Origin: Chryseobacterium sp. T16E-39
Lineage (GTDB): Bacteria; Bacteroidota; Bacteroidia; Flavobacteriales; Weeksellaceae
Reading direction: 5' to 3'
Assembly: GCF_002216065.1 (NCBI RefSeq)
Contig: NZ_CP022282.1
Location: 1,364,001 to 1,428,000 of the forward strand
Length of the DNA stretch: 64,000 nt
In this document: positions 55,895 to 64,000 of the stretch, piece by piece
How positions within the stretch are numbered: the stretch's first letter is position 1
How the letters are laid out: every line of letters begins with the position of its first letter
Program-made: the position numbers and the translations under genes
Notes under the pieces: model-generated
What the model was told of the DNA's origin: nothing
Databases searched by the model: none
The model's input: the letters and a program-made list of their open reading frames with translations, nothing else

Positions 55895-55990
55895 CTATCA
55901 ATAAATATAACTTTTAGAAATATTTATCAAATTTTAAAAAACGTACTGAAGAAAGTTAATGAACGAAAATGGTTTAAAGAAACACCTTTG

Positions 55991-58192
55991 ATGAAGACTA
56001 TATTATTTAGAAGAAACCACTATCCATTTTTCCGGCAATTAGACACCATGGACTGTGGACCTACCTGTCTCAAAATGATTGCCTCCTATTATGGAAAAGA
56101 ATTATCACTCAATCATCTGCGTGATATCTGTGATGTCCGCAGTCAGGGAACCTCTGTTTCTGGTTTAAAATATGCCGCTGAAAAACTTAAGCTTAAAACA
56201 TTAGCCGCTGAATTAACTCAGGAGGTCTTACTTGAAAAAGCACCACTACCCTGCATACTCCATTGGGACCATAATCACTTTGTCGTTTTATGGAATCTTA
56301 CAGAAAAACATGCCTATGTCGGTAATCCTGCCCTTGGCAAGAATATGCGTTATACGATCAATGACTTTATGGAACACTGGACCATATCAGGGCATGAAAA
56401 TAAAGGCATTGCAATATTTATTGAACAGACAGAATCTTTTAACGAAATAGAAGATCAACCAGATCCTTCAATCAGTTTATTTTCTTTATTAAAACGGATC
56501 AGCGATCAACGTAAGCGTATTTACTTTGTTATGACAGCTCTTTTGGCCGCTACCCTTTTAACATTAGCAATCCCATTACTGACACAGGCAGTTGTAGACA
56601 AAGCCATTTCAAAAAAAGATATTGGAATATTATCTTTAATCTGTGCAGGGCAGCTCATTCTATTTACAGGCCGGATTTTAACTGACTTTTTTCGCAGCCG
56701 GATCCTTTTCAAACTGGGAATGAACATAAGCATAAAACTGGTTTATGAGTTTGTGGATAAGCTTATGCAGTTAAGGCTCTCTTTTTTCGAATACAGAAGC
56801 AGTGGTGACAATTTACAGCGAATTTATGACAATCAACGTGTAGAGGAATTCCTTACAAAAAACTGCGTAAGCGCCGGACTCTCTCTTATAATTCTCATCG
56901 TAAATGGCGGACTTTTATGCTACTATGACTGGAAGCTCTTTCTTCTATTTCTTGCTGCAAGTATGATAAGTGTTCTTTGGACGCATCTTTTTGAAGAGAA
57001 AAGAAGACGCCTGGATCAGCGAACTTTCAGCTTGCTTTCCAATGCCCAACGCCATCAGATAGAAACATTCGAAGCCATGGCAGAAATAAGACTGACCGGA
57101 GCAGAAGAAGAAAAAAACCAGCTTTGGAAAACGATGCAGGAGGAGACCTATGCAGTAAAAATGGAAAATCTAAAACTGGACCAGCGTATACAAGGCGTAG
57201 CACTTTTCATCAATGAAACAACAGGGGTATTGACTACTTTTTTAACCGCTTCTTTAGTAATCAACGGACATTTAACACTCGGTGCAATGCTTGCCATTAC
57301 ATATATGTATGGTTCATTGAACGGTACTGTAAACCAACTGTCAGATTTCATCCGTTCCATGCAGACTGCGAAATTCAGTCTGCAACGGATTTCTGAAGTA
57401 GAATATGAAGAAACGGAAGATGCCCATTCAACCCTGACTCTGCCCAAAGGAAACTCTGGTTCAATAGAACTGCTTGATGTCAGCTTCCGGTATGGAAAAT
57501 TATCCCCTGATGTTCTGCATAATATCTCTTTAACGATTCCTGCAGGAAAAGTAACCGCTATCGTAGGGATGAGTGGAAGTGGAAAAACAACACTTTTAAA
57601 GTTACTTCTTAAATTTTTCAATACCACCCAGGGAATCATCACTTTTGCCGGACAAGATCTGAAACTGATTAATGCAAAAAGCTTACGAAGACAGTGCGGA
57701 GCTGTTATGCAGGATTCTTTTCTATTCACAGACAGTATCGCTGGCAACATCTGGGTCGGAAGCCCTGAAAAAGATCTCTATCGGGTAAAAAATGCCTGTA
57801 AAATGGTGAACATGCAGGATTTTATTGAAAGCCTCCCCCTCTCTTATGAAACCCAGATTGGCAGCGAAGGAATTGGACTCAGCGAAGGACAGAAGCAACG
57901 CCTGCTTATCGCCCGGCTGATTTACCGTCAACCTGATTATATATTTCTCGATGAAGCCACCAATTCTCTTGATGCCAATAATGAAAAACTTATCGTTGAA
58001 AACCTGAACACTTTTTTTCTTGGCAGAACGGTCGTTATTGTTGCTCACAGACTGAGCACTGTTGTTCATGCAGATAATATTATCGTACTGGACCATGGAA
58101 ACATTGTTGAACAGGGCACTCACGAAGCATTAACAATGTCAAAAGGGGCTTATTATCACTTAGTTAAAAATCAACTGGAACTCGGAAAATAA
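55991..58192 (+). CDS. Peptidase-containing ABC transporter (PCAT) for lanthipeptide
   Basis: 733 aa from ATG 55991 (a TTG precedes it). Domain order: C39 peptidase (about residues 8-145) with oxyanion Gln16, Cys22 and His96; position 112, normally Asp, is Asn (VGNPALG). Six membrane helices follow (about residues 170-450), then the ATPase with Walker A GMSGSGKT (527-534), signature LSEGQKQR, Walker B DYIFLDEAT and H-loop IVAHRLST. The enzyme should cut the precursor after the double glycine and export the product. First gene of the operon; 10 bp before the dehydratase gene. Confidence 0.92.
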   Translation: MKTILFRRNHYPFFRQLDTMDCGPTCLKMIASYYGKELSLNHLRDICDVRSQGTSVSGLKYAAEKLKLKTLAAELTQEVLLEKAPLPCILHWDHNHFVVLWNLTEKHAYVGNPALGKNMRYTINDFMEHWTISGHENKGIAIFIEQTESFNEIEDQPDPSISLFSLLKRISDQRKRIYFVMTALLAATLLTLAIPLLTQAVVDKAISKKDIGILSLICAGQLILFTGRILTDFFRSRILFKLGMNISIKLVYEFVDKLMQLRLSFFEYRSSGDNLQRIYDNQRVEEFLTKNCVSAGLSLIILIVNGGLLCYYDWKLFLLFLAASMISVLWTHLFEEKRRRLDQRTFSLLSNAQRHQIETFEAMAEIRLTGAEEEKNQLWKTMQEETYAVKMENLKLDQRIQGVALFINETTGVLTTFLTASLVINGHLTLGAMLAITYMYGSLNGTVNQLSDFIRSMQTAKFSLQRISEVEYEETEDAHSTLTLPKGNSGSIELLDVSFRYGKLSPDVLHNISLTIPAGKVTAIVGMSGSGKTTLLKLLLKFFNTTQGIITFAGQDLKLINAKSLRRQCGAVMQDSFLFTDSIAGNIWVGSPEKDLYRVKNACKMVNMQDFIESLPLSYETQIGSEGIGLSEGQKQRLLIARLIYRQPDYIFLDEATNSLDANNEKLIVENLNTFFLGRTVVIVAHRLSTVVHADNIIVLDHGNIVEQGTHEALTMSKGAYYHLVKNQLELGK

Positions 58193-58202
58193 ATTTTGCA
58201 AA

Positions 58203-60857
58203 ATGAGCTTTACTAATTTACCTTATATTTTTACACGGTTTGCTGCATTGCCCGTCCAAAGTTTAAATGCTTTAATCATTCCTGAAATTGAAGGCCAGCT
58301 TAATCAATGGCAAATGGCAGCAGAGTACAAAAAGAATTGTAACGAAAAGTTGTGCAGTTCGCTTTACACCCTAATTGAACAATCTGCTGACGACCATGAA
58401 CGAAAGCTTCTATTAAACCTTAAGCGCGCAGTGTATAACGGTCGGCAAAATGCGAAATCGATGGCACAAAAAATACCTTCGGACACTTTTAATATAATCG
58501 AAGATTCCTGGAAAGAGTGGTTAATCGCCGTGGAAAAGCATAAAGAATACGAACAATCCTGGGAAAAGGATTTCAATGATCACCTATTCGCACACCGAAA
58601 GAATATTCAAAAGCTTACTGGGCTATATCCGCTTAAAAATGGAGTTTTACTTTCAAGCAAAGATTTATATGAACAATTGGAAAGTTTTGAAAATGCTGAT
58701 GTGAAATCTTTAAATAAAGACACCGAAAGAATTGAATTCAGTGTACTGCGCTACCTAACCCGGATGACGTATAAAACATCCCCTTTCAGCACGTTCACCT
58801 ATTTAGGCCTTACCCAAATGGACGCTGCTGATCAGACAGGTGTTTCCGCCCTTTCGAAAATCCCTGATTCTAAAATACGACTTAACAATAAACTTTTGAA
58901 ACGTATAAAAAAGTTGATGGAGTGCCATCCTGAACTACAAGGTCTGTTGGTCGTGAATATCAACAGTAGTGTAAGTGAGAACGACGGCCGATTCAGTTTT
59001 CTGCTCAATTGTGCAAACATTGAAGTCTTTCAGGAAATTCAGGCCTCGGGTGTGAATCAATATATTAAAGAACTGATCAACAATTCGGAGGAAAGTATCT
59101 CATTATCATCATTCATTGAACTTCTTTCAAACCACATTGAGGCCGATTTTTCAGAATTACGACATTATGTATTAAAATTGGTGGATTCAGGATTTTTAGA
59201 ACTCACTTTAGAGTGTTCTGAGATTGATCCTGACTGGGACAGCCACCTTTTAACATTTCTGGGACAGCACGAAAAAAACAATGAATCTGCACAACAGCTC
59301 TACGAAATGGTTTCTCACCTTCAACAGGCAAAAAATGAATTTGCATCTGCAAAGATTTCTCAGCGGGAGATTATTTTGAAAAAGATCTCAAAGATCTTTG
59401 ATACCACTATTTCAGGTCTTGAAAATCAGGCAGGTATTGTAAAACTGCCGAAAGAAGAAATTAAGGACTTGCTTGAAAATATCCTTGCACAATATAGAAA
59501 TGGGGAAGGATTTGAAAAAATTCCTTATATCCCGGTTGACTACCGCCAGGAAGGATTCATTTATGAAGATACTTATACCGACCAGCTTCATACAGCTAAA
59601 GAAAATACCATTAATGAACTTGGAAAATTACTATCTGATCTTGTCAATCGACTGACCGCTTTTGATATCAGGGCTAAGGAGAAAAACAATATTAAAAACT
59701 TCTTTATCTCCAGTTATGGCGATCATCAAAAAATTCCTCTGGTTACTTTTTACCATGAATATTATCGTCACAAAAATGAATTCGAAACAGGGGAAGAACA
59801 AATATCTTACGGCAATCTCTGGGCTGATCTTTTTTGGGCTGATCTTCAGAACGAAGGGCAGATGTCCGACGAAATAAAAATTCAAAAGAAGCACCTGTTT
59901 CAGCTCCCTGTATCAAAGAAAACAGCTCCCTCCGGTTCAGCATTCCTGCAATTTTTTGATCATCAATCCAAAACAGGCACCAAAGCGGTTGTCAATGGAC
60001 TCATGCCGGGCATGGGTAAAATGAGTGGTAGGTTTCTCCATCTTTTTGATCCTGAAGTTTCTAAAGCACATAGAGATTATAACAGACTTTTATTTCCAGA
60101 CAAGCTGCTTATTGAGCTCAATGATGACTCCAGTTTTAATGCCAATATCCATCCTCCTTTGCTTGATCATGAGATTAAGATGCCATCGTCAAATACACAG
60201 ATGAAAAAGTCTCAGCAGATCAGTTTAGACCGGATATCAGTGGGCTATAATCCAGAAAAGGATATGCTTTTTTTGACAGACAACATTTTAAAGAAAGAAA
60301 TCTATGCATTTGACTTATGCCTGGAAACAATAACAAACAGATCAAACCTTTACCAGCTTATGTCTCTGTTCAACCCGTGTATCTATGTCAGCTATCATCC
60401 ACTGATACAGGTTATCGACAAAAATTATTCAAAACAATTTAAAAATGAAGACATTCAGGTATTTCCACGAATTGTGTTTGAAGACAAGCTGGTGCTTCGA
60501 CGCAAAGGATGGCTGATCGATCTCGCCACCATTCCCCGACAAAACAGAGATGAAAAAAACAGTGTTTACTTTCTCCGCTTTCACCAATGGTTATTAAAAA
60601 ACACATTACCATCTTCTGCATTTCTTTATTTACAGTCTTCGTACATTCCTGAAAATCAATCAGCCGATAAAACTGCTGGAAACAAAGATGATTACAAACC
60701 TCAATTTATAAGTTTCGAGCAACCTTTGCTTTTCAGCCTTTTTACAAAACTTCTAAACAGGGCTGTATCCTACATTTATCTAGAGGAGGTACTACCTTCT
60801 GTACACCATTCCCAGGAAAGAGTTTCCGAGCATTTAATTCAATGGTATAATTTTTAA
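58203..60857 (+). CDS. Split LanB, glutamylation (N-terminal) half
   Basis: 884 aa. Begins FTNLPYIFTRFAALPVQSL and has the Lant_dehydr_N signature LTRMTYKTSPFSTFTYLG near residues 185-202, with a second conserved block SGRFLHLFDPEVSKAHRDYNR near 620. In LanB enzymes this domain transfers glutamate from Glu-tRNA to Ser/Thr of the precursor. It has no SpaB_C elimination domain at its end, which is instead encoded by the next gene 5 bp later. Split LanB is known for pinensin and for thiopeptides. Confidence 0.9.
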   Translation: MSFTNLPYIFTRFAALPVQSLNALIIPEIEGQLNQWQMAAEYKKNCNEKLCSSLYTLIEQSADDHERKLLLNLKRAVYNGRQNAKSMAQKIPSDTFNIIEDSWKEWLIAVEKHKEYEQSWEKDFNDHLFAHRKNIQKLTGLYPLKNGVLLSSKDLYEQLESFENADVKSLNKDTERIEFSVLRYLTRMTYKTSPFSTFTYLGLTQMDAADQTGVSALSKIPDSKIRLNNKLLKRIKKLMECHPELQGLLVVNINSSVSENDGRFSFLLNCANIEVFQEIQASGVNQYIKELINNSEESISLSSFIELLSNHIEADFSELRHYVLKLVDSGFLELTLECSEIDPDWDSHLLTFLGQHEKNNESAQQLYEMVSHLQQAKNEFASAKISQREIILKKISKIFDTTISGLENQAGIVKLPKEEIKDLLENILAQYRNGEGFEKIPYIPVDYRQEGFIYEDTYTDQLHTAKENTINELGKLLSDLVNRLTAFDIRAKEKNNIKNFFISSYGDHQKIPLVTFYHEYYRHKNEFETGEEQISYGNLWADLFWADLQNEGQMSDEIKIQKKHLFQLPVSKKTAPSGSAFLQFFDHQSKTGTKAVVNGLMPGMGKMSGRFLHLFDPEVSKAHRDYNRLLFPDKLLIELNDDSSFNANIHPPLLDHEIKMPSSNTQMKKSQQISLDRISVGYNPEKDMLFLTDNILKKEIYAFDLCLETITNRSNLYQLMSLFNPCIYVSYHPLIQVIDKNYSKQFKNEDIQVFPRIVFEDKLVLRRKGWLIDLATIPRQNRDEKNSVYFLRFHQWLLKNTLPSSAFLYLQSSYIPENQSADKTAGNKDDYKPQFISFEQPLLFSLFTKLLNRAVSYIYLEEVLPSVHHSQERVSEHLIQWYNF

Positions 60858-60862
60858 AAACG

Positions 60863-61735
60863 ATGCAGAAATCCTGGAATACTTATTATATATACTATGG
60901 TGGAAGTGCAGACCAAATATTGAAAGAAATAGTACATCCATCTATCGAAGATGTACAGCAATCAATGGAAAAAGAACTGAAATTTTTCTTTATCCGATAT
61001 TTTGAAAATGGCTATCATATCCGGTTACGCCTGTTCTTATCAGCTAAAGAATCTATTCTTTTTAAATCCATGCTAGCCAACCACGTCTCAGTATATGAGC
61101 ACATAAATAAAGCAGCAATCGTTGTGAGAGAAACTGAATATATTCCTGAAATTGGCCGATATGGAAATGCAGATACGATCAAATATGCTGAAAGCTATTT
61201 TTATGAATCGTCACGGTTTGTTTTGCATCATTTAGTAACAAAGGAACCTTTAACGATATCTGAAAGATATCTTCTCGCCCTCAAAACTCATATGATATTT
61301 TTAAAAGGAATGGGGTTTTCTAAAAATTATAGCCAACAGCTATGTGATAAATTTATACAAAGCTGGCTTCCAGTTCCTTTTTCCCAGGATTCTAACGAAT
61401 ACGAACAAAACAGGAAAAGCATACGATCAGCTTTTCAGATACAGTTTGAAACATATCAGGATTTATTATGTGAGCCTCTTGCAGAATTCTGGAATTCACT
61501 GGATACCACCACAGATGTTTTTATAAAACAGTTTCTTGAAGCGAACGGTAAGATCTGGAGTAAATACAACCAGGCTCAGTTATCATCAAATGCTCTGGAA
61601 GAAGTTTTACTTAGCTTTATTCACATGACTAATAACAGGCTGGGAATAGTAAATTCTGAAGAATCCTACCTTCTTTTCTTAATCATGAAAACCATCCCAT
61701 TAATAAAGGATTATGACAACAAACAAAGAACGTAA
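60863..61735 (+). CDS. Split LanB, elimination (SpaB_C) half
   Basis: 290 aa, a stand-alone SpaB_C / thiopeptide-type bacteriocin biosynthesis domain. FFFIRYFENGYHIRLRL (about residues 41-57) and YIPEIGRYGNADTIKYAE (about 94-111) match the conserved motifs; the Ser pair ESSRF replaces the more usual DS. In LanB this half removes glutamate to leave dehydro-Ala or dehydro-Thr. Its end overlaps the next gene by 23 bp, so translation is coupled. Confidence 0.9.
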   Translation: MQKSWNTYYIYYGGSADQILKEIVHPSIEDVQQSMEKELKFFFIRYFENGYHIRLRLFLSAKESILFKSMLANHVSVYEHINKAAIVVRETEYIPEIGRYGNADTIKYAESYFYESSRFVLHHLVTKEPLTISERYLLALKTHMIFLKGMGFSKNYSQQLCDKFIQSWLPVPFSQDSNEYEQNRKSIRSAFQIQFETYQDLLCEPLAEFWNSLDTTTDVFIKQFLEANGKIWSKYNQAQLSSNALEEVLLSFIHMTNNRLGIVNSEESYLLFLIMKTIPLIKDYDNKQRT

Positions 61736-63626
61736 AGAATTTCAGAAAGGATTGAATGAAATAAGTGAGTTTCTTTTGTCCAAGACACAGCAAGATGAAA
61801 ATGGCTTCTTTTGGGATACGATTTATCATGACAATGATACTGGAAAACTTTCTTTCACATTCAATCCCTCTCTGTGGAATGGAACGGGAGGTATCGCCTG
61901 GTTTTTTCTTGTACTTTATGAAAACTATGGCGAAAAACAATATCTCTTAACTGCCGAAGGAGCGTTTGCAAAAATATATCACCATTCAACACATCATAAA
62001 ATTTTAAATCCAAGCCTTTATGATGGGATATGTGGGTCTATTTATTTAGGTTTGGAACTGTTCGGGGTTACCGGTAAGGAACTGTATCTTCAGCAGGCCT
62101 TAGATCTCTATGAAATGTACAGGTCCAAAATACTCTCAGAAGAAACGGAAGATCTGCTGATTGGTATCTCAGGAATTTTAATCACCGTCTGCACTCTCTA
62201 TCATTTTACGCAGGATCAGAAATTATATGATGATATAATCATACTAATCAATACCCTTCTGGAAAAGGCATTAGTTGCGGAATCGGGTATTAAATGGGGT
62301 AAAAACCAACTTTCAATGGATTCACTTTGTGGTTTTTCACATGGTAATTCAGGTATAGCTTTCTGTCTGTTGCAGCTGGGTAAATACTTTAATAATGATG
62401 AATTTATCTGGATGGCTGAACAGGCATTCCTCTATGAAGATCTTTACTATAATTCCTCAAAAAACAATTGGATGGACTTACGATGGGAGGAATCTAAAAA
62501 TCAATTACCGGACCTATTTGAGTGGAATAAAAACACCTTTCTCCCTGAAGATTTTGATCTCAATGCATGGGCACACGGCGCCTGTGGTATTGGAACAGCA
62601 AGAATTTCGGCATTCAATAGGACCCGTAATCCAGTGTATAAAAAAGATTGTATCAAAGTATTTGAACGATGCAAAAATGATATCATGACCAGAACTAAAC
62701 GGAATCACATCCTCTTTAGTGGATATGGAGGACTTTCAGATTTTCTGTTGCAGTATAATCAGGTGTTTGCCAATAAAGAAGCTTTGCACCTTGCCACTGA
62801 AATTGTTCTGGAAGGTTTAAACAAAAGCAGAGAGCACAATCATTCTGCATGGGGAATCCAAAACAATGAAGATTTAGGACTTATGACAGGTACAGCCGGA
62901 ATTGGACTTTCTTTACTTATGATGATAAAAGGGAAAACCGTAAATTCAATTCTTCACCCGGAATTACCCGTGAATGAACCTGGAACAGGGAGAATCCTCA
63001 AAGCGTTTAAAGTCAAAAAAACTTTTTTTAATTTGTATTATCCTAAAACGCTGAAAGCTCTAAAGACCATTATACAGCTTAAGGACTCTATTTATGACTC
63101 TGAAGTCATAGAAGAATTTGGCAACACCTTATTGAATATCATTGAAGATCTGCCTAAAAAAGATCGGGTATATATTTCAGACATTCATCAGCTTGAAACC
63201 GCCCAAATCAAAATCAGGAAAAAACATAAAGGCGCTTTGTGCTTTCAAACGCGACTAATCATATTGAAAGAGGAATTGGCTGATCTATTAAAAAATGATA
63301 AAAGTGATCTTCAGGGAAAACGATTTATCGGTACTCCCTTCATTGAGGTTTACGAATCCAAATGGAACTGGAAGGAGGAAAACCATAAAGATTCGGATGC
63401 AGGAAAATACTATAATGTTTTGTATAGCACAGATCAGGAGATGTTCCATCTTGTATTAAACTCATTTTCTGCAACAATACTTCAGCTTTTGAAGAATCCT
63501 TTAAGTATTGAGGAACTAACAGAGTATTTCTATTATCCCGAAGGAGAAAAGGAAATAATGAAAAATAAAATAACGGAACAGGTCAGGGAGCTTTTAAACA
63601 ATTTCTTCATCAGGGTCAATCCTTAA
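61713..63626 (+). CDS. LanC-like cyclase with C-terminal extension, zinc ligands missing
   Basis: 637 aa. The first 415 residues have the LanC alpha-toroid pattern, with repeats SLWNGTGGIAW, SLYDGICGSIYLG, GFSHGNSGIAF, AWAHGACGIGTARI, ILFSGYGGLSDF and LMTGTAGIGLSLL. LanC zinc ligands are Cys in WCxG and Cys-His in CHG. Here the first reads WAHG (Ala287, with Cys291 four residues on) and the second FSG (335-337), so none of the classical ligands is present. Residues 415-637 are an extra region; its end (FHLVLNSFSATILQLL to LLNNFFIRVNP) resembles a winged-helix, PqqD-like recognition domain. Role: thioether formation or precursor binding. Confidence 0.82.
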   Translation: MTTNKERKEFQKGLNEISEFLLSKTQQDENGFFWDTIYHDNDTGKLSFTFNPSLWNGTGGIAWFFLVLYENYGEKQYLLTAEGAFAKIYHHSTHHKILNPSLYDGICGSIYLGLELFGVTGKELYLQQALDLYEMYRSKILSEETEDLLIGISGILITVCTLYHFTQDQKLYDDIIILINTLLEKALVAESGIKWGKNQLSMDSLCGFSHGNSGIAFCLLQLGKYFNNDEFIWMAEQAFLYEDLYYNSSKNNWMDLRWEESKNQLPDLFEWNKNTFLPEDFDLNAWAHGACGIGTARISAFNRTRNPVYKKDCIKVFERCKNDIMTRTKRNHILFSGYGGLSDFLLQYNQVFANKEALHLATEIVLEGLNKSREHNHSAWGIQNNEDLGLMTGTAGIGLSLLMMIKGKTVNSILHPELPVNEPGTGRILKAFKVKKTFFNLYYPKTLKALKTIIQLKDSIYDSEVIEEFGNTLLNIIEDLPKKDRVYISDIHQLETAQIKIRKKHKGALCFQTRLIILKEELADLLKNDKSDLQGKRFIGTPFIEVYESKWNWKEENHKDSDAGKYYNVLYSTDQEMFHLVLNSFSATILQLLKNPLSIEELTEYFYYPEGEKEIMKNKITEQVRELLNNFFIRVNP

Positions 63627-63633
63627 AATAAAA

Positions 63634-63663
63634 AAAGCTGCTTTATTTACATAAAGCAGCCCT
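63634..63663 (-). terminator. Terminator between lan operon and precursor
   Basis: GCTGCTTTAT (63637-63646) and ATAAAGCAGC (63651-63660) form a perfect 10-bp stem with loop TTAC. The T run is on the minus strand, so it mainly ends precursor transcription; it may also stop the operon from the other side. Confidence 0.85.
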
Positions 63664-63683
63664 TAAATTGTTCGAGTCTATAA

Positions 63684-63878
63684 TTAACACTGAACAGTAC
63701 CACAAACGTGAAGTCTGTCCTGAGTTTTTATAGTGTGAGTCGGGTGATCATGATCTCCTGCAGGAGAAATTCCTAAACCACCTTGTAATTTTTTAGACAA
63801 ATCTTTGTCTAATGCCGTTACGAAGCTTTCGATCTTAAGATCATCGATGTTAAGCTTCATCTTTTTGTTGTTTTCCAT
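63684..63878 (-). CDS. Lanthipeptide precursor peptide, pinensin-like
   Basis: 64 aa. Leader residues 1-34 contain KLNIDDLKIESFVTAL, which resembles the class I recognition box, and end with LSKKLQGG, a double-glycine cut site for the C39 transporter. The 30-residue core (from Leu35) has Ser38, Thr47, Thr49, Thr52, Thr61 and two Cys (59, 64), four His (43, 45, 48, 57) and a DHDHPTH stretch. Two thioether rings at most; Thr61-Cys64 would make a small ring. Encoded convergently with the enzymes and behind its own upstream region. I recall leaders of the 'SFVT' type in pinensin-family precursors of Bacteroidota. Confidence 0.88.
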   Translation of the reverse strand: MENNKKMKLNIDDLKIESFVTALDKDLSKKLQGGLGISPAGDHDHPTHTIKTQDRLHVCGTVQC

Positions 63879-63969: not shown

Positions 63970-64000
63970 TTTAAATGTTAAAATTTGATCCCTAGCTGTA

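Follow-up and report, generated by a model that had tools for sequence, protein, structure and literature searches.

At the downstream end of the window (the whole 64,000-nucleotide stretch analysed here, positions 1364001–1428000 of a genome that is a single contig of 4.87 Mb) lies what is, judged by its sequence, a pinensin-type class I lanthipeptide cluster, in which the Cys/Cys/His zinc ligands of the LanC-like protein are replaced by Ala287, Phe335 and Ser336, so that the zinc triad of class I is absent. The best explanation of the locus as a whole, to which we give a probability of about 0.65, is that this protein acts as a zinc-less cyclase and that an adjacent TonB-dependent receptor and ABC transporter are dedicated to the peptide. 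The gene set, the leader family, the triad loss with its conservation and the linked transport operon can be read directly in the DNA and its relatives.

Gene content and predicted product

All five cluster genes are present and open in an ORF check of the window (Table 1), with the LanC-like gene overlapping the preceding LanB elimination gene (61713 against 61735). The exporter starts at 55988, and the ATG at 55991, from which a first-pass annotation of this DNA had counted, is the next codon. Since the gene set recurs in other species, the cluster is not a product of chance, and the recurrent orthologous open gene sets likewise rule out a decayed cluster; the 22 nearest full-length LanC relatives are 64–72% identical, and those with names belong to Chryseobacterium or Elizabethkingia, so that the genus of the window is probably Chryseobacterium. 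The first-pass annotation had assigned the locus to class I, with a split LanB and of pinensin type, and both the family matches and the recurrent gene set bear this out. A defence system was considered and rejected: PADLOC, run on the five proteins, returned six models on the ATPase part of the exporter only (best mad3, 95.5 bits), which we read as shared ATPase sequence. Promoter-like sites near the precursor gene (3 found, 1.9 expected) are no evidence of a promoter.

Table 1. Features of the cluster and of the adjoining operon, in window coordinates.
Feature	Position	Strand	Basis
C39 peptidase-ABC exporter, 734 aa	55988–58192	+	PF03412 (Peptidase_C39, 110.7 bits)/PF00664/PF00005; PDB PCAT1-type C39 domains; alignment
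LanB glutamylation protein, stand-alone half of split LanB, 884 aa	58203–60857	+	PF04738 (Lant_dehydr_N) 114 bits; PDB 6ec7 (lantibiotic dehydratase domain protein)
LanB elimination protein, other LanB half, 290 aa	60863–61735	+	PF14028 (Lant_dehydr_C) 124.4 bits; TIGR03891 110.4 bits
LanC-like putative cyclase, 637 aa, without zinc triad	61713–63626	+	PF05147 (LANC_like) 147.1 bits; LicM2 6st5 alignment; relatives' alignments
His210 codon, kept; catalytic acid place (NisC His212, LanCL1 His219)	62340–62342	+	alignment; role from PMC9934072
Ala287 codon, place of first zinc Cys (WAHG against WCHG)	62571–62573	+	alignments
Phe335-Ser336 codons, places of second zinc Cys and zinc His (LFSG against LCHG)	62715–62720	+	alignments
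LanC C-terminal extension, residues 425–637 (~213 residues)	62985–63623	+	common to zinc-type relatives
Terminator-like hairpin 3' of precursor gene, 14 pairs, then T run	63633–63664	-	1 found, 0.4 expected in shuffles
Precursor LanA, 64 aa, convergent	63684–63878	-	NF038180 (leader_pinensin, curated) 44.2 bits, cut-off 24
TonB-dependent receptor gene (3' end in window, 63978–64000)	63978–66167	-	ORFs past edge; Pfam and NCBIfam
ABC-2 permease (past edge)	66179–67627	-	Pfam and NCBIfam
ABC-2 permease (past edge)	67617–69050	-	Pfam and NCBIfam
ABC ATPase (past edge)	69270–69971	-	Pfam and NCBIfam

The dehydratase is of the LanB type that marks class I, and its residues are conserved among relatives (the comparison is not residue by residue on a solved LanB): Arg12, Arg75, Arg187, Lys191 and Arg388 of LanB-N are identical in 48 of 48 aligned proteins, while among 53 aligned LanB-C proteins Arg45, His52, Arg54 and Arg56 are each present in 51 and His254, Arg259 and Glu267 each in 53. 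The exporter has Cys23 and His97, and both the LanB and exporter enzymes look active; the C39 exporter presumably cleaves the GG leader and exports the product. Residue 113 of the exporter is Asn in the window and in 12 of 12 aligned Chryseobacterium/Elizabethkingia exporters (L010–L021), and is the catalytic-triad Asp in the other aligned exporters (L053 being incomplete there). Asn is compatible with catalysis in papain-type proteases.

The precursor consists of a leader (residues 1–34) that ends in GG, as the first-pass annotation had it and as the NF038180 match supports, and of a core (residues 35–64), LGISPAGDHDHPTHTIKTQDRLHVCGTVQC, of 3235.56 Da unmodified, with five Ser/Thr (Ser38, Thr47, Thr49, Thr52 and Thr61), two Cys (Cys59 and Cys64) and four His, so that its description as His-rich stands. 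Its description as a sequence of its own does not: 12 other Chryseobacterium/Elizabethkingia genomes have the core with 0–4 changes in 30 residues, which rules out a unique core. Because Ser38 is Ala in seven of 12 listed relatives, four to five dehydrations are to be expected, which would give the core, once cut off at GG, a monoisotopic mass of 3163.52 Da (four) or 3145.51 Da (five). Ten of the 32 cores with the THT motif were compared (L067, which does not fit, is outside the ten); all ten have the conserved THT, 3–4 His, two Cys five apart and a Thr three before the last Cys. Two Cys, together with Thr61 three before the last of them, fit two predicted methyllanthionine rings, and a two-ring product, as proposed earlier, is plausible given that pinensins have two such rings. 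A Thr61-Cys64 ring is suggested by the sequence; a Thr52-Cys59 ring is a weaker guess, because the spacing between THT and the first Cys ranges from 12 to 16.

Loss of the zinc triad in pinensin-type LanC proteins

Aligned with LicM2 (6st5), WAHG of the window LanC falls under WCHG and LFSG under LCHG. The first-pass annotation had called it a modified LanC-like protein, a description that conceals its chief feature, the missing zinc triad. Relatives were taken as the best 80 of 255 loci from a scan of species genomes with a LanC alignment; they were retrieved with a pair of short patterns, one of them restricted to Ala or Cys at the position of the first zinc ligand, and other triad states may therefore be under-sampled. 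The triad is absent in 34 and intact in 49 of the 83 aligned LanC rows (the downstream fragment of the broken L020 LanC is left out of the table). All 32 rows with a pinensin-type (THT) core in the stretch lack it, the states at the three places being AFS in 12 (window included), AVS in 4, ACS in 15 and ATN in 1. None of the 49 intact-triad rows among the same best 80 of 255 loci has a THT core in its stretch (12 have another core and 37 no recognised precursor), this absence being absence in the stretch, as many zinc-type stretches are short or without recognised precursor. The two remaining triad-less rows are L021 (AFS), with no precursor in its stretch, and L049 (ASE), which stands beside Cys-rich precursors without a THT core. 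The genome of L021 does hold a THT core and the receptor operon about 12 kb off and, counted in, brings the loss to 33 of 33. L049 (9995–12025, an Aminicenantes MAG) has lost the triad separately, its acid His is Asn and two Cys-rich precursors adjoin it; this LanC is perhaps a decayed enzyme.

A tree built without the three triad columns has two state changes, one in the pinensin clade including L067 and one in L049, with SH-aLRT support for the clade of 93 with L067 and 99 without; the method was a quick one, and the placement of L067, a long branch, is unsure. Most simply, these changes mean one old loss in the pinensin clade, so that the association of triad loss with the THT core would rest on about one event, not on 32. 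The second zinc Cys was lost later, to Phe in the Chryseobacterium/Elizabethkingia group and to Val in one Pedobacter group. Two wider scans (395 genomes each, up to three candidates scored per genome) returned the window and nine matches. Two of the nine, L112 and L116, duplicate L052 and L055, their 400-base pieces being identical; the other seven comprise six CCH rows and L111, AVS with a THT core. The later-found rows L105, L108, L109, L110, L113, L114 and L115 are all CCH, with Cys-rich precursors read beside the LanCs of L105 and L110. Compensation within the ligand loops was rejected, as the candidates His332 and Cys291 occur in zinc-type rows too.

One of the closest known systems is that of pinensins A and B from Chitinophaga (YR627, L039), with which the window has in common the leader family, split LanB, LanC kin and C39 exporter, the gene order, the receptor and ABC genes beside the precursor, the THT motif, the two Cys five apart and the loss of two zinc ligands, the first Cys and the His. 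The window differs in a core with a longer N-terminal part, GDHD and CGT for CTT, in the loss of the second zinc Cys as well (Phe) and in exporter Asn113 for Asp. Zinc-type LanC loci (L050, L054, L105, L110) share the leader family, the LanC C-terminal extension and, in several, the split LanB, but have the CCH triad, Cys-rich cores without THT and no receptor and permease pair in their stretches. The C-terminal extension matches no Pfam model in more than one of 32 members at E <= 0.05; its best PDB profile matches (2wpr, GCN4 fusions, best E 2e-4) were taken as chance and a coiled-coil identity was rejected. One Glu of the extension is invariant in 32 aligned members.

The kind of cluster is already known. 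The pinensin gene set, the split LanB and the kinship of pinensin LanCs to LanM domains are in print (PMC7268733), and the combination of LanB with a cyclase of undefined triad, as in the window, has been counted before in the 'B-Unk' class of PMC11251773, which tabulates 14 predicted LanB-linked peptides. The main text of that paper names neither pinensin, Bacteroid, Chitinophaga nor Chryseobacterium; some of its 14 peptides may be of the type seen here. Passages of PMC12328550, PMC7268733, PMC7296275, PMC13060382, PMC12241602, PMC9248904 and PMC10459008 do not connect the absence of the triad, or a TonB receptor, with pinensins.

A receptor and ABC operon beside the precursor

The first-pass annotation saw no dedicated immunity gene, which holds for the window, but a TonB receptor and ABC operon adjoins the precursor past its edge, and the precursor-linked genes in fact begin at 63978, the 3' end of the receptor gene being already inside. 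In the 9 kb past the window the minus-strand operon runs toward the precursor in the order ATPase, two permeases, receptor, 99 bases, precursor. Among the best 80 of 255 loci, receptor and both permeases accompany 30 of 32 THT-core rows, the exceptions being L031, whose stretch ends just past the receptor gene, and L067, where none were found; in the zinc-type stretches of the same sample the set was found in 0 of 49 rows. Two arrangements occur: most Chryseobacterium/Elizabethkingia and several Chitinophaga loci have exporter, LanB, LanB and LanC followed on the opposite strand by precursor, receptor, permeases and ATPase, and Pedobacter, Sphingobacterium and L030 have receptor and permeases on the exporter's other side.

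Within the genus, LanC (E <= 1e-30) occurs in 14 of 173 genomes, and among the matches listed (six candidates per genome scored) the receptor (E <= 1e-120) occurs in the same 14 and in none of the other 159. The second permease exceeds 800 bits in these 14 as well (the copies in G203 and G154 contain a stop), with paralogs at 109–210 bits in many genomes and some match in 81 of 173. The leader is found in the same 14 genomes and in G039. The cluster of G039 (L105) is another one with a pinensin leader, four Cys-rich precursors among large proteins and a CCH LanC; the 19.9 kb examined around it held no match to the receptor query. More widely, the LanC family is rare, being present in 3 of 395 phylum and 7 of 395 class genomes (E <= 1e-60; the window's genome in both). 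Frameshifts in sister strains, named in the first-pass annotation as a sign that would speak against the cluster, come down to a LanC gene broken by a stop in one (G154) of the 14 carriers among the 173 genus genomes. In Chryseobacterium sp. CH21 (L020, 10001–11925) the LanC gene lies in two reading frames, and that cluster looks inactivated.

The core peptide is nearly invariant across the loci. Mean identity to the window is 96.7% for the precursor and 86.5% for the receptor (11 loci each), and 87.2%, 68.6% and 62.6% for exporter, LanC and LanB-C (12 loci each), one permease being left out because its low mean includes a mispaired gene where the L021 stretch ends. Nei-Gojobori estimates, rough for a 64-codon gene, give dN 0.022 and dS 0.42 for the core and dN 0.027 and dS 0.50 for the leader (12 loci, 66 pairs), and dN 0.19 and dS 1.52 for LanC (11 loci, 55 pairs). 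The precursor gene thus has roughly a third of the synonymous divergence of LanC, a hint either of constraint at the DNA or RNA level or of exchange between species.

The peptide may instead serve chiefly as a weapon against fungi or bacteria, the receptor and ABC genes providing immunity, a reading that we hold to be less likely than not. In its favour, pinensins are antifungal (PMC13060382), and the ATPase matches the lantibiotic-protection model TIGR03740 (LanFEG) at 164.2 bits. Against it, this score lies below the cut-off of 309.75, though the ATPase may nonetheless work like a lantibiotic-protection ATPase. For C. herbae, whose core (L010) is one residue different from that of the window, passages of PMC10459008 report a pinensin-family peptide in the culture supernatant, which we infer from the contig region given there to be the product of L010, and inhibition of Magnaporthe oryzae that is weak. 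The core also hardly varies between species, and such near-invariance argues for a fixed partner (receptor, metal or conserved target).

Probable ring closure without the canonical zinc site

From its alignments, the window LanC most likely remains a class I cyclase, one that, like the class III enzymes, manages without the usual zinc site. Of the 34 triad-less rows, 33 retain the acid His (window His210), L049 being the exception, and all 34 have His at the enolate-stabilising place (NisC Tyr285, LanCL1 His277; window His288), the roles of NisC His212/LanCL1 His219 and of NisC Tyr285/LanCL1 His277 being those given in PMC9934072. Against this reading, zinc ligands are described as essential in LanC, LanM and LanL (PMC9889658). 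The cyclase domain of class III ThurKC also has no zinc triad: it has Ser726, Phe770 and Asp771 in place of the ligands, and cyclization is lost when either Phe770 or Asp771 is changed to Ala (PMC10604976). Phe335, at the place of NisC Cys330, matches Phe770 by position, but Ser336 does not match Asp771, and ThurKC differs further in being a fused kinase-lyase with Ser and Asp where the window has Ala and Ser; in the window, dehydration is by LanB. No kinase or lyase domain of class III LanKC was found in the window LanC, only LANC_like scoring above its Pfam cut-off. Chitinophaga sp. YR627 (L039) has an ACS LanC and a core identical to the described pinensin (PMC9248904), and pinensins carry two methyllanthionine rings made with LanC, the passages of PMC13060382 that say so not mentioning a lost triad.

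A LanC that is no longer a catalyst but a scaffold or chaperone, the rings forming spontaneously or through the canonical LanC of another cluster, is unlikely in our estimate. The lost triad would fit it, as would the judgement that triad-less Bacteroidales LanC-like proteins, which stand without LanB, are unlikely cyclases (PMC10352776). Further PF05147 matches in 29 of 32 relatives' genomes (YR627 has 4) and a second LanC in the window's genome make help in trans possible there. Against this, His210 and His288 are kept as above, the zinc-less LanC is the only PF05147 match in three of the 32 genomes (G007, G009 and G031, draft assemblies holding L016, L018 and L051), and the gene has been retained with dN far below dS. 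The second LanC of the window's genome belongs to another class I lanthipeptide locus (L009, C1:2978521-2979633), with LanC (WCYG, CHG), LanB and a GG precursor of a different leader type.

Quite unlikely is a non-canonical site in which other residues, with Cys320 as candidate, or the His/Asp-rich core hold a metal. Cys320 (62670–62672) has been gained in 30 of 33 pinensin-clade rows (of the 32 zinc-type rows in L036–L072, 26 have Thr there), and the conserved THT and 3–4 His of the ten compared cores would suit metal binding; yet Cys320 is missing in L031, L035 and L067, and L049 lost the triad without having a THT core.

In the preferred reading, of a zinc-less cyclase and a peptide-dedicated receptor, the split LanB would use glutamyl-tRNA to dehydrate the core Thr and perhaps Ser38, and LanC would then form the two methyllanthionine rings, one between Thr61 and Cys64 and the other perhaps between Thr52 and Cys59, with dehydrobutyrines remaining in the HPTHT motif. 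In ring closure His210 would act as acid, His288 would stabilise the enolate, and Phe335 with nearby residues would position the thiol, a scheme close to that proposed for ThurKC; the exporter would then cut after Gly34 and export. The adjacent TonB receptor and ABC transporter would serve this one peptide, most likely in recapture, sensing or clearing of the producer's own product, although the receptor could serve another ligand. That these genes are an ordinary siderophore system adjoining the cluster by chance is very doubtful: the receptor scores narrowly above the cut-off of the TonB-siderophore model TIGR01783 (233.8 against 223.5 bits), but its occurrence in the same 14 genomes as LanC and its presence in 30 of the 32 rows with a THT core, under two gene orders and across several genera, speak against chance.

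More tentatively still, in a reading that is as a whole less likely right than wrong, pinensin LanCs may form a class I lineage that has given up zinc and closes methyllanthionine rings free of metal (in this genus with the Phe of class III), and the nearly invariant His-rich peptide may be dedicated to the linked receptor, serving as a signal taken up again or as a carrier of metal more than as a weapon. With the locus of a product of known structure among its members, a zinc-less class I lineage would make LanC catalysis without metal addressable on a separate, stand-alone enzyme, with the naturally graded states CCH, ACS, AVS and AFS available for comparison, and the strict link to one receptor suggests seeking a role for pinensins other than killing fungi.
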